A stretch of DNA of 64,000 nucleotides from an uncultured Ruegeria sp. GTDB taxonomy: Bacteria; Pseudomonadota; Alphaproteobacteria; Rhodobacterales; Rhodobacteraceae. Made by a program: the position numbers and the translations under genes. This document shows, piece by piece, positions 46,191-49,791 of the stretch. Position 1 is the stretch's first letter; each line of letters begins with the position of its first letter. The stretch is taken from contig NZ_CANNGO010000010.1 in assembly GCF_947504215.1 (NCBI RefSeq), positions 62,001 through 126,000 of the forward strand. The letters run 5' to 3'. The notes beneath the pieces were generated by a model. It searched no databases and was not told the DNA's origin. It saw only the letters and a list, made by a program, of their open reading frames with translations.

Positions 46191-49100
46191 TTAGTTCGAA
46201 ACATATCCGGCAATGACCTGCAACAGCTTGAACGCCGTAGCCGCGTCGTTTTCCACAACAGCCAGGAATTCTTCCTCACCGATGCGCAAACAGGACAGCT
46301 CTGTTTCGGCAACCATACTCAAGGCGCGCGGTTCTTTGCGGATCAACCCCAATTCGCCGACCAAAGCGCCCGCCCCAACCTTTGCAATCAGTTGATCGGG
46401 TCCCTCGATTTGGGGAAGATACAGCCCAGCCTCACCGTCCAAGACAACATAAGCCCCGTCCGTCGGCTGATCATCTTTCAAAAACACCACCTGCCCGGGA
46501 GCCGCATTGAACCAGCGCGCACCAAAGGCCAACAGGCGCAATTGCCTGCGATCCAACCCCGAAAACAGGGGGGTCTGTTCCAATGCGCGAAGCTTGCGCG
46601 CAAGGTCGGCCGAGGCAGCGCTGTCCTCCTCCACGTCCGCAGGTCCTTCGTCAGTGACCACACGACCTTGTCGGATTTCAACATACATGTCGAATACATC
46701 GGGGCTTTCGAACTGGTCATTCAGGTAGATGACCGTGGTCTCGGGCAGCAATTCACGCAGGTTTTTATACACAGCGACCTGTGTCTGCATGTCATAGCTG
46801 GCCAAGGCGTTTTCCAGGATCAAAATGTCGGGTTTTTTGATCGTTGCCCGGGTAAAGGCCAAAGGTTCGGCAAACACGGCTGGCAGGTTTTGCCCCCCCA
46901 GAGACACCGGAATGTCGTAGATCAATTCCACCACCAGCGGCCGTGCGCCATTTTCGTCCAACACATCGACGATCAGTTTGCGCGCTTCATCCGAACGCAC
47001 ACCTCCTATCTGGCTGACCTTACCGAACAGGGCGTTTTCCATCACTGTCAAGCCGGGCGCAAACTCCTCCGGTTTCAGCGGCACGAAGACATCCTGCAAC
47101 CGCTCCAACAGCTTCTCGGAATGGCTGTGGCGCAGTTCAAGGATCCGGTCCTTCAACTCATCTGTAAACGCCGGCCCGATCTGTTCAGCCGAAATCACCA
47201 ACGGAACCGCAAGCAAATTGGCCAACTGCCCGTCATCCAACCCAGCGGCACCTTCCTTGCGTGTGCGCTCGACCAGCTCGACGGCTGTTTCATAGGTTTG
47301 CGCCTCAAGCCCCAACTTGCGGAACAATGGGTGATCCGTTCCGTCGAGCCCGAAGATCTGCCGCAGCATATCGATCACGTCACGCGTCAACGCAATCAGT
47401 GTCTCGTCCAATCCCAGCTCGCGCAATTGCCCCAGAAAGACAGTTTGTTGCGCCAGCAGGTCTTGTGTCACTGAAACACGAGGTGTTGCAAAAAGCAGGT
47501 TTTCAGCCACGGGAAGCGCCGGATTGTAGCTGTCCCGATCAAAGATCAGAGCATGCTGTTCCAACCCTGCCTCATGAACTGCTTGCTGAACACGCGGGCG
47601 AAGCTCAACCAATTTTTGCGCAAGCTCTGGATGTTCTGTCGCATTGAACTCCTGTTCTGCGCCGCGTTGGAACAGTGCAGCCCCGGATCCCATCCCATCA
47701 ATCAGCCGTAGCCACCAATCTCGCAACGCGGTTGCACTGTCTAAACCCGCCAGAGACGGATCCAGCCATTCAGCCTTGAAAGGGTCGGTGCTATTTCCAG
47801 CCCTGAGTGTTTCGGGGAAATCTGGATCGTCGGCGGCGTTTGACAATGGCTTGTACCGCATCGGCATCATGACGTTGTCACCCAGCGTGCCTTGGAACAT
47901 GACCGGCCGGGACGAGGCATAGCCTATGCGTGCTGCCACAATACCTTGGTGCAACTCGGACAGTTTCTGATCACCGATTTCGACCCGACCTGCACTTGGC
48001 AGGATTTCCCGGGTCAACAGCTCTCCGATCGCTCGCCTATCCTCTTCGCTTGGCGCGGCGATACCGATGGTTTTGCCATGCGGAAAAGTCAAGTTTAGAT
48101 CATCCAACACCTGATTTCCATCGATGTCGCGGACCGACACCCGATCCAGAACAATATCGCGATTCAGATGTGGGCGTGCTTCAGGCTCACCTTCGAACAG
48201 CTTTTCATCCTGCATACCGGAAGGAGCAAAGCGTTCGATCACGACATCCCAGCGCAGGGACATATCCTGGGTCTGGTTGTAGTAGGTCAGCAGCTCTTTC
48301 CAGGGCGAGCTGAGATCTTTGTAAGCCGCAAGCGCCGCAACCAGAGCCCCCAGTGAAACCGACCCCTGAAGCACCAGAAGCCCGCCAACCAGATAGAACA
48401 TGAACGGCGTCAATTGCGAGATGAAGTTGTTTATGAACTTCATAAAAAACTTCTTCTGGTAGATCTCGAACCGGATGCCAAACAACCGACCCAATTGATC
48501 CGAGATCATGGCCCGACGATACCGCCAGCCCCCGTTCGCGCGCAGGGTCGATGCGCCTGCGGCGTTTTCACCGATTTGGGCCGCCAATACGCGCACTTCT
48601 TGAATACGGCGTTTGTTCAGCAAGTTGATCTGACGTTGCAAGCGCGGGATCAACCAGGCCTGAACCGGGATCAGCGCGACGGCGGCCAGACCAAACCAGA
48701 AGCTTTGCAGAAACAGGAAAGACAGGATGGTGATCATCTGCCCTGCCTGCAAAACCGGTTGACTGATCGCATCGCCCATCAGCCCGCCCATCGGCTCACT
48801 TTCGGCGGTGATCATCGATACCAGCTCACCTTGGCTGACGCGCTCAAAATAAGGCTGTGGGAATCGCAAGGTGCGGCTGATCAACTGATAGCGAAGCCGG
48901 CGCAGCATCCGCTCGCTCAGCACACCTTTCATGGTGTTGATGCGCATCTTCATCAGCCCGTGCGCCAGAACCGCGACTAAAAAGGCAAAACACAAGATGA
49001 TCAGAAAATTCGTTTGCGGCAGGCTGTAACCCCAGAACTCGACAATGCTGCTTGTGGCGCCGATCGCATCATTGATGATGCGTTTCGGCAGCTCCAGCGT

Positions 49101-49199
49101 CAGGTACAGCAATGGGAATAACGTCGATGTGACGGCCAGCAAAATCAGCTGGTCGCGCTTGGAGTACTTCCAAATGAACCGAAAAATCGTGCGTTCTAT
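46191..49199 (-). CDS. ABC-exporter-like membrane protein with degenerate ATPase, large insertion and cyclic-nucleotide-binding domain; apparent ATA start
   Basis: About 1002 residues. An ABC-type-1 transmembrane domain (about 20-315) is followed by an ABC ATPase domain in which the catalytic motifs are lost: Walker A reads GIAAPSEEDRR, the Q-loop Gln is replaced (YASSRPVMFQGTLGDN), Walker B reads ILILENALASYD, and the H-loop His is Asn (YLNDQF). Only the signature-like SLGGQ remains. About 300 extra residues sit inside the ATPase domain, with two more segments like the Q-loop region (LPVAENLLFATP, LTVMENALFGKV). The last 140 residues are a cNMP-binding domain (GALVGELGLIRKEPRALSMV). Homology-like sequence (ERTIFRFIWKYSKRDQLIL) continues upstream of the first TTG (49142) to an ATA at 49199 with AGGGGCAGG before it; an in-frame stop lies 24 bases further up, with no ATG, GTG or TTG between. 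Confidence 0.75.
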   Translation of the reverse strand: MERTIFRFIWKYSKRDQLILLAVTSTLFPLLYLTLELPKRIINDAIGATSSIVEFWGYSLPQTNFLIILCFAFLVAVLAHGLMKMRINTMKGVLSERMLRRLRYQLISRTLRFPQPYFERVSQGELVSMITAESEPMGGLMGDAISQPVLQAGQMITILSFLFLQSFWFGLAAVALIPVQAWLIPRLQRQINLLNKRRIQEVRVLAAQIGENAAGASTLRANGGWRYRRAMISDQLGRLFGIRFEIYQKKFFMKFINNFISQLTPFMFYLVGGLLVLQGSVSLGALVAALAAYKDLSSPWKELLTYYNQTQDMSLRWDVVIERFAPSGMQDEKLFEGEPEARPHLNRDIVLDRVSVRDIDGNQVLDDLNLTFPHGKTIGIAAPSEEDRRAIGELLTREILPSAGRVEIGDQKLSELHQGIVAARIGYASSRPVMFQGTLGDNVMMPMRYKPLSNAADDPDFPETLRAGNSTDPFKAEWLDPSLAGLDSATALRDWWLRLIDGMGSGAALFQRGAEQEFNATEHPELAQKLVELRPRVQQAVHEAGLEQHALIFDRDSYNPALPVAENLLFATPRVSVTQDLLAQQTVFLGQLRELGLDETLIALTRDVIDMLRQIFGLDGTDHPLFRKLGLEAQTYETAVELVERTRKEGAAGLDDGQLANLLAVPLVISAEQIGPAFTDELKDRILELRHSHSEKLLERLQDVFVPLKPEEFAPGLTVMENALFGKVSQIGGVRSDEARKLIVDVLDENGARPLVVELIYDIPVSLGGQNLPAVFAEPLAFTRATIKKPDILILENALASYDMQTQVAVYKNLRELLPETTVIYLNDQFESPDVFDMYVEIRQGRVVTDEGPADVEEDSAASADLARKLRALEQTPLFSGLDRRQLRLLAFGARWFNAAPGQVVFLKDDQPTDGAYVVLDGEAGLYLPQIEGPDQLIAKVGAGALVGELGLIRKEPRALSMVAETELSCLRIGEEEFLAVVENDAATAFKLLQVIAGYVSN

Positions 49200-49401
49200 T
49201 GAACCTGCCCCTGCTGCTGATCAACGAAGTGATTTTGGTGTTATGCATGCAAATACAACAGATTGAATTTACAGTAATCCAGTTGGGATACGCAAATAGT
49301 TTCACACTTGGTATATTTATTCGCGTTGTGTGAACTAGTTCATTTACGTGCCCGCGTTTTCAGTCATAGTATTCGGGCAGGACGAGATCGGGAGGGTACT
49401 T

Positions 49402-49791
49402 TTGACTGCCAGTTTTGGCGCAGTATTTCTTATGCTCTGCTTATTGCAGATCAAGCATATGTTTGCCGATTTCTTCCTACAGACACCTAAAATGCTTTCC
49501 GGGCGAGGAGAGTATTTTCACATGGGTCGTGCACAGCATGCCGGTGTGCACGTCGTTGGTTCTGTTATCGTGTTCCTGCTGTTCGGCGCACCGCTGATGT
49601 TTATTCTGGTAATCGGGGCCCTGGAATGGGTTGTTCACTTTAACATCGATTTCTTCAAGGCAAGCTATTCCGACAAAAAGCAGCTGGAGCCCAATCAGGC
49701 CGCTTTTTGGCGCGCGGCGGGATTGGATCAGTGCCTGCATAACCTGACTTATGTTGCAATGGTTTGGGCCTGGGTTACGTTCGCAACCTGA
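49402..49791 (+). CDS. DUF3307-family membrane protein
   Basis: A 129-residue protein with three or four hydrophobic segments. The N-terminal helix carries LLQIKHMFADFFLQTPKML, followed by a conserved HAGVHVVG and EWVVHFNIDFFK, the pattern of DUF3307 proteins, whose function is unknown. The start codon is TTG: GGGAGGG sits 5 bases before it, a better fit than an in-frame GTG 54 bases upstream. The gene lies in a divergent pair with the ABC-like gene across a 200-base gap. Confidence 0.75.
   Translation: MTASFGAVFLMLCLLQIKHMFADFFLQTPKMLSGRGEYFHMGRAQHAGVHVVGSVIVFLLFGAPLMFILVIGALEWVVHFNIDFFKASYSDKKQLEPNQAAFWRAAGLDQCLHNLTYVAMVWAWVTFAT

Follow-up and report, generated by a model that had tools for sequence, protein, structure and literature searches.

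A pseudo-ABC exporter of Ruegeria with lost ATP motifs, a cyclic-nucleotide-binding domain and a predicted AUA start: a candidate membrane regulator

Background

What work is left to a protein that keeps the fold of an ATP-binding cassette (ABC) exporter when the residues that handle ATP have gone? The question is posed by gene A, which lies on the minus strand of a 64,000-nucleotide stretch of DNA from an uncultured Ruegeria sp. (NCBI RefSeq assembly GCF_947504215.1, contig NZ_CANNGO010000010.1, positions 62,001 to 126,000), the whole of which we call the window. An initial annotation had proposed that its product is a sensor, channel or scaffold and not a pump; this appears plausible, and the reading is strengthened because relatives that possess the transmembrane part alone exist. 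Our own explanation, to which we assign a probability of roughly one half, is that gene A may encode an ATP-independent membrane regulator of low abundance, derived from an ABC exporter, responsive to cyclic nucleoside monophosphates (cNMP) and expressed under discrimination by IF3. As the comparisons below show, the lineage keeps best the transmembrane domain (TMD) and a cyclic-nucleotide-binding domain (CNBD) with its ligand residues, the nucleotide-binding domain (NBD) being kept as a fold with five motifs lost, and gene A is inherited together with a small divergent membrane protein of the DUF3307 family. The ATA/ATC start, the spread of the family through the class and the DUF3307 neighbour had escaped the initial annotation.

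Architecture and predicted fold

The initial annotation had placed gene A correctly at 46191-49199. Its frame of 1002 codons and a stop runs from 49199 to 46191, beginning with ATA at 49199-49197 and ending with the stop codon at 46193-46191; the coding strand is the minus strand, and the plus-strand frame over the same interval is interrupted by stops. The parts of the product follow one another in the order TMD, first half of the NBD, insert, second half of the NBD and CNBD (Table 1). Pfam recognizes ABC_membrane at residues 41-290 (E 1.9e-17), in agreement with the ABC type-1 domain already proposed, and cNMP_binding at residues 899-985 (E 2e-15; 56.9 bits against a cut-off of 27.5), which bears out the claim that a CNBD is fused to the C-terminus. 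ABC_tran gives no Pfam match in the gene A product at E <= 1, and still matches the distant member L178 with E 1.1e-19; the ABC exporter families of NCBIfam score far under their cut-offs on the gene A product.

An AlphaFold model computed from the window and 45 orthologues (pLDDT 78.8, pTM 0.65) predicts an NBD fold on either side of the insert. Residues 343-851 of this model superpose on the NBD of ComA (3vx4) with Z 23.5 and 2.3 A over 222 of 239 residues, and the two halves jointly fit the solved NBDs 3vx4 and 4k8o at 2.3 A across 222-224 residues. The top Foldseek matches of the model are ABC exporters, with low whole-chain TM-scores. Judged from Pfam and the model together, the gene A product would have the layout of a type IV exporter, that is a six-helix TMD followed by an NBD fold.

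Loss of the ATP motifs

The motifs were tallied in 188 non-redundant aligned members out of 231 extracted, namely 93 orthologues of at least 55% identity (group A), 12 sequences of a paralogue (paralogue B) and 83 distant alphaproteobacterial members (group D). In all 93 orthologues Walker A, Walker B (DE) and the signature are broken, and both the Gln of the Q-loop and the His of the H-loop are missing. The four alterations from which the initial annotation had argued for a dead ATPase are thereby conserved among homologues, and the signature is lost as well, since LPAVF occupies the LSGGQ position in gene A; an LGGQ immediately ahead of that position does not represent the signature. At Walker A the orthologues have a conserved sequence of their own, SEEDRRA, with Arg in the Lys column in 93/93. 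Chance is made unlikely by the repetition of the loss in 93 non-redundant orthologues, and the ATPase of this chain is almost certainly dead.

The paralogue is no better equipped, with Walker A, Walker B (DE), signature and H-loop each intact in 0/12 and a Gln at the Q-loop column in 1/12. Among the 83 distant members Walker A (GxxxxGK[ST]) is found in 4, the Walker B Asp-Glu in 4, the signature (S-x-G-Q core) in 2, the H-loop His in 27 and the Q-loop Gln in none; the Walker A Ser/Thr has become Asp or Glu in 68 and the Walker B Asp has become Asn or Ser in 62. Homologues with normal motifs, beside which gene A would look like a decayed copy, were not found: Walker A, Walker B and the H-loop occur together in a single distant member (L215), and all five motifs in none of the 83. 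In ABC ATPases the Walker A Ser/Thr and the Q-loop Gln are Mg2+ ligands, and because these residues are altered the Mg-ATP site seems to have been lost in the family as a whole, group A then having substituted its own conserved sequence.

It could be argued that the gene A product is the inactive half of a heterodimeric transporter, the other half being either a protein with a live ATPase from another locus or paralogue B. Heterodimeric exporters with one degenerate site, such as TmrAB, TM287/288 and TAP, are well known and rank among the structural matches of gene A, and paralogue B is also present in 21 of the 25 same-family genomes with gene A. The known heterodimers preserve one complete composite site, however, and since Walker A, Walker B and signature are all lost in gene A, both composite sites of such a pair would be incomplete; paralogue B is just as dead (0/12), and no live half-transporter is seen beside gene A in the window, as had been stated before. 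We therefore regard a heterodimer as quite improbable.

Purifying selection and the transmembrane domain

A search found 424 related stretches, of which the best 80 were used, giving 81 sequences with the window. The median ratio of non-synonymous to synonymous substitution rates (dN/dS) between the window and 14 relatives is 0.037 for the TMD, 0.075 and 0.039 for the NBD halves, 0.052 for the insert and 0.029 for the CNBD, and gene A is by this measure under strong purifying selection, with no decay. The lost ATP motifs and a premature stop in 1/81 sequences (L059, a metagenome bin) are what might be said for a decaying gene without function. Such a gene is hardly conceivable here, since the median dN/dS of 0.029-0.075 is far below 1 in all domains, the length is constant (Table 1), the CNBD residues are invariant and the non-AUG start is conserved together with the spacing of its Shine-Dalgarno (SD) sequence.

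Proteins of about 310-470 residues that match the TMD alone occur in several genomes (L274-L281), and one of them, the 312-residue L281, is encoded by the window's own genome and is 25% identical. Among eight such NBD-less proteins Pfam finds ABC_membrane in seven, nothing in one and ABC_tran in none; their identity to the TMD of gene A is 37-42% in five and 25-34% in three, whereas a conventional exporter from the window's own genome reaches 17%; of three conventional exporters in that genome, the TMD tree took in this one. An alignment of 34 sequences (29 chosen members of the groups A, B and D and the five closer NBD-less proteins) has 52 TMD columns with a conservation of 93% or more. Many of these are charged or polar, and K84, E96, R101, E133, Q165, R203, K254, N258, K294 and D295 are found in 34/34. 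The conserved columns and the NBD-less relatives together suggest that what the lineage has conserved is a task of the TMD and not ATP hydrolysis.

The cyclic-nucleotide-binding domain

The Glu and Arg of the phosphate-binding cassette, E949 and R958, which we take to be the ligand residues of the CNBD, are kept throughout group A (Table 1). In group D the CNBD mostly has a gene of its own: members with a split arrangement and enough flanking sequence have a CNBD frame directly downstream in 44/46. Fused against split CNBD requires two changes on the tree, one of them involving L158, whose fetched stretch ends inside the frame. The genome of the window has 15 class III cyclase domain matches, and a ligand is therefore available in principle. 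On balance the CNBD of gene A probably binds a cNMP.

Initiation at AUA or AUC

The start codon is ATA in 67, ATC in 24, ATG in 2 and ATT in 0 of the 93 non-redundant orthologues (ATA 76, ATC 27 and ATG 2 in all 105). In the window there is no ATG, GTG or TTG in the frame of gene A between the upstream stop and the ATA, and the same holds for 65 of the 103 orthologues with ATA or ATC. A codon-like pattern of conservation sets in at codon 1: from there on the third positions vary, whereas the other two are for the most part conserved. Upstream of it identity falls to a background of about 0.27, from which a GG at -11/-10 stands out (0.92-0.94; G at -11 in 89/93 and at -10 in 90/93), with CC at -2/-1 less pronounced (0.63) and a few partly conserved columns in the interval. 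The SD was judged by this column profile, which replaced a search for a fixed list of cores. Nor does codon 1 behave as an ordinary Ile codon, because internal Ile codons of the orthologues are ATC 3573, ATT 1158 and ATA 166, ATA thus being rare and ATT common. Among 35 orthologues the start codon has changed at least 9 times and never to ATT, even though A-to-G and C-to-T mutations are as a rule the more frequent. Mapped on the tree, the non-AUG start requires three changes, the simplest history being a single gain with two later reversals. Two controls start conventionally: paralogue B with ATG in 12/12 and in 13/13 more (25/25 read, the partial G017 left out), and a mandelate-racemase-like neighbour with ATG 54 and GTG 1 (55 found in 80 loci). 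Initiation of gene A at AUA or AUC is accordingly a very probable feature of the family as judged from these alignments.

Should the true start be an internal TTG or GTG near codon 18-23, the conserved bases ahead of it would be regulatory. This is the choice made in the RefSeq record TM1040_RS03855 (NC_008043.1; L271 5001-5052), which begins at the TTG of codon 18 and so cuts 17 conserved residues from an orthologue that has ATA. It is very improbable, however, in view of the facts that codons 2-18 vary chiefly at third positions (median dN/dS 0.008), that the first canonical in-frame codon is scattered from codon 5 to 37 (most often 18-23), and that the conserved GG sits 10-11 nt ahead of ATA/ATC. 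The same RefSeq error may affect other orthologues.

Non-canonical starts aligned in 9 of the 83 distant members (CTG, CTC, CTA or TTC) were likewise looked into and dismissed as parallels, for an in-frame ATG lies upstream in all nine genomes (that of L118 was read on L179, from the same genome), and these proteins probably have N-terminal extensions.

The gene infC was read in 27 of 30 loci, the motif used giving no match in G008, G017 and G083, none of which carries gene A. Its start codon is ATA in 26/26 of the examined genomes that have gene A, and ATC in the one genome read that lacks it. The infC of the window's own genome (L201 near 1450; G000:C1, just upstream of 24139) likewise has GG at -11/-10, and those of the relatives are at L242-L270. 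A paper on an infC ATA start in Rhodobacter-type bacteria was not found in the open-access literature. According to one report, IF3 represses the GTC start of sigR in Streptomyces and the ATT/ATC starts of infC (PMC5472188), and another gives AUA starts for infC and ccpN of S. aureus, besides one AUU gene, apparently cvfC1 (PMC13009471). By analogy with the repression of sigR and infC starts we infer that IF3 may control gene A.

The DUF3307 partner

A divergent DUF3307 gene lies at most 900 nt from gene A in 78 of the 80 loci and about 1 kb away in L066; the locus L065, truncated by its contig end, gave no DUF3307 match. In 149 same-family genomes DUF3307 is found (E <= 1e-6) in 25/25 with gene A and in 9/124 without it, at E-values of 9.8e-36 or better in the former and of 8.5e-32 to 7.2e-20 in the latter. 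A functional link between the two genes is likely on this evidence. The codon aligned at the DUF3307 start is TTG in 66, GTG in 6 and ATG in none of 74 non-redundant loci, the two remaining loci, with other codons, being probably misaligned. ATG thus seems to be avoided on both sides of the divergent pair, as would suit a unit held at low dose.

Regulator or pump

How such a unit would operate can be sketched as follows. The gene A product would form a dimer in which the NBDs are merely a rigid cytoplasmic frame; cNMP bound at the C-terminal CNBD would shift the TMD, either directly or by way of DUF3307, and the unit would thereby act as a sensor or gate instead of pumping; and initiation at AUA or AUC, discouraged by IF3, would keep the unit scarce and tie its supply to the balance of IF3 and ribosomes. 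That gene A is a regulator, sensor or gate rather than a pump is in our opinion an even bet. A wider generalization, which we offer as tentative, is that of a class-wide family in which the TMD of an ABC exporter has been uncoupled from ATP, the NBD having become a ruined scaffold or been dropped, and in which control has passed to the CNBD; the Roseobacter-type unit, with gene A starting at AUA/AUC like infC and DUF3307 at UUG, would then be rationed by start codon and read both cNMP and the state of initiation.

Several observations weigh against the interpretation of gene A as an ATP-independent regulator under IF3 discrimination. With regard to the ligand, paralogue B has Asp in place of the CNBD Glu in 12/12, although the Arg is kept in 12/12. 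With regard to the start, an in-frame ATG, GTG or TTG exists upstream in 38 of the 103 ATA/ATC orthologues, though the upstream codons lack conserved periodicity; an SD core of the fixed list is missing in 50/105 orthologues and found in 55/105; 6 of the 27 infC genes also have a canonical in-frame codon upstream; and the DUF3307 start was read from one aligned codon. Furthermore, the start-codon class common to infC and gene A is a correlation and not proof of IF3 control, infC having varied too little. With regard to ATP, the distant members retain the Walker A Lys in 45/83, the signature Gln in 75/83 and the H-loop His in 27/83, and nucleotide binding without hydrolysis is therefore possible there. 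Finally, distant members often adjoin glycosyltransferase genes: 12 of 20 group D loci have a frame that clusters with the glycosyltransferases of L178 (Pfam having been run on L178 alone), and in two rhizobial plasmid records distant members again stand in a glycosyltransferase neighbourhood, which suits an export or flippase role of the ancestor.

Because of these neighbours the strongest alternative is an exporter or flippase of unusual mechanism, in which the TMD would transport a substrate of lipid or glycan type under gating by cNMP, and the NBDs would close without hydrolysis of Mg-ATP. The entire exporter fold is kept, the TMD is strongly conserved, methyltransferases accompany the glycosyltransferases beside distant members, and many distant members retain the Walker A Lys and the signature Gln. 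All five ATP motifs are gone in gene A, however, TMD relatives without an NBD exist, and the constant neighbour of gene A itself is DUF3307 and no glycan gene, for which reasons we consider a flippase of this kind unlikely and retain the regulator as the preferred explanation.

Distribution of the family and the paralogue

A search with the complete protein sequence matched 31 of 149 same-family genomes at E <= 1e-60, 129 of 385 genomes of the class at E <= 1e-30, in some cases through the TMD or a contig fragment only, and 22 of 299 genomes of the phylum at E <= 1e-25. Of the latter 21 belong to the same class and the lone match outside it, G636, is an NBD-less protein. Sequences were fetched from some, not all, of the 129 matching class genomes, and 2-5 candidates were scored per genome. 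Group A forms one clade (100*) on a tree obtained by a quick search and having many open forks.

In the window's own genome paralogue B, with a dead NBD too, lies at L181 7854-10964 (G000:C7) and is 52% identical to gene A. It adjoins a CPBP-protease-like gene (weak NCBIfam hits) in an order kept across several genera, and its neighbours are presumably accD and folC, as named by eye. The distant members on the stretches L178 (1-11652) and L273 are surrounded by glycosyltransferase genes together with methyltransferases and a histidine phosphatase, a setting found on a rhizobial pSymB plasmid as well. No report of the gene A family or of its start codon was found in the open-access literature, which omits most subscription papers.

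The insert

The insert lies between the Q-loop and the helical/signature region and measures about 257 residues (447-703), somewhat less than the 300 of the initial annotation, which had also read two ENxLF segments as duplicated and re-used parts of the ATPase domain. The two segments do match one another as repeats, with a profile-profile probability of 97.8 and E 5e-12; their derivation from the region after the Q-loop is unproven, the likeness of each to that region being weak (probabilities 8.5 and 12.9). Folded alone, the insert reaches pLDDT 78.3 and gives weak rows against solved structures by VIA-align, with best Z 4.0; a weak match to residues 549-623 of the HlyB NBD (Z 2.8) would agree with descent of the insert from an NBD helical subdomain, and neither shows nor excludes it. 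A second ATP site was looked for here and not found: the sequence of the insert holds no GxxxxGK[ST], and its separately folded model has no PDB match at E <= 0.001.

Table 1. Features of gene A and of its divergent neighbour, in coordinates of the window
Feature	Position	Strand	Basis
Gene A (pseudo-ABC exporter with CNBD)	46191..49199	-	length and related stretches; 72/81 sequences including the window exactly 1002 aa
Predicted start codon ATA	49197..49199	-	ATA/ATC in 91/93 orthologues; codon-periodic conservation begins here
SD-like AGGGG, GG at -11/-10 conserved	49208..49212	-	flanking bases far less conserved
ABC type-1 TMD, residues 1-330	48210..49199	-	Pfam, model, conserved columns
NBD first half, residues 343-445; remodelled Walker A AAPSEEDRRA, Q-loop GYASSRP	47865..48173	-	alignment, superposition
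Insert between Q-loop and helical/signature region, residues 447-703	47091..47861	-	model, profile comparison
Repeat copy 1 within insert, FDRDSYNPALPVAENLLFATP	47478..47558	-	profile-profile comparison
Repeat copy 2 at end of insert, FVPLKPEEFAPGLTVMENALFGK	47010..47093	-	profile-profile comparison
NBD second half, residues 704-850; lost signature LPAVF, Walker B LEN, H-loop ND	46650..47090	-	alignment, superposition
CNBD, residues 862-1000	46200..46616	-	Pfam
Phosphate-binding cassette LVGELGLIRKEPRALSM, E949 and R958	46314..46364	-	both residues in 93/93 orthologues
Divergent DUF3307 membrane protein (PF11750)	49402..49791	+	aligned start TTG; listed ORF from GTG 49348

Implications

If the regulator interpretation is true, an ABC-exporter fold is able to function without ATP as a membrane device under cNMP control, and the NBD-less relatives would offer its minimal form for study. 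The AUA/AUC start would furthermore add a membrane protein to the few genes that use a start codon against which IF3 discriminates, and may predict that IF3 tunes a set of genes outside translation. Gene callers that allow only ATG, GTG and TTG would repeat the annotation error of the RefSeq record checked, from which the conserved N-terminus is missing.

Comparison with known systems

The closest known systems are the type IV ABC exporters, such as BmrA, ComA/PCAT1, MsbA and TAP, which share the TMD and NBD fold and are the best structural matches of gene A; unlike them, gene A has lost the five ATP motifs and carries an insert of about 257 residues between Q-loop and signature and a C-terminal CNBD. 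A functional parallel may be drawn with the SUR-type proteins that regulate KATP channels, since in both an exporter fold with degenerate NBD(s) would act as a regulator, and SUR2 is listed among the structural matches. SUR keeps one working consensus site, however, whereas gene A has none, adds a CNBD and is not known to have a channel as partner. The proteins of Rhizobium leguminosarum p2 and Sinorhizobium meliloti pSymB annotated as 'ABC transporter transmembrane domain-containing protein' are homologous over most of their length and adjoin a CNBD gene, but theirs are split genes with mostly ATG or GTG starts, motifs partly retained and, in two records, a glycosyltransferase neighbourhood. 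With respect to initiation, gene A resembles infC (ATT/ATC; AUA), sigR (GTC) and ccpN (AUA) in having a conserved start outside AUG, GUG and UUG with an SD at fixed spacing, and it has the AUA start in common with the infC of the same genomes. It differs from sigR and infC in that its product would be a membrane pseudo-transporter, and in that IF3 control is reported for those two and not for gene A. Reuse of the ABC fold without ATP and a small class of genes with non-canonical starts are both already known, and gene A would add a member to each.

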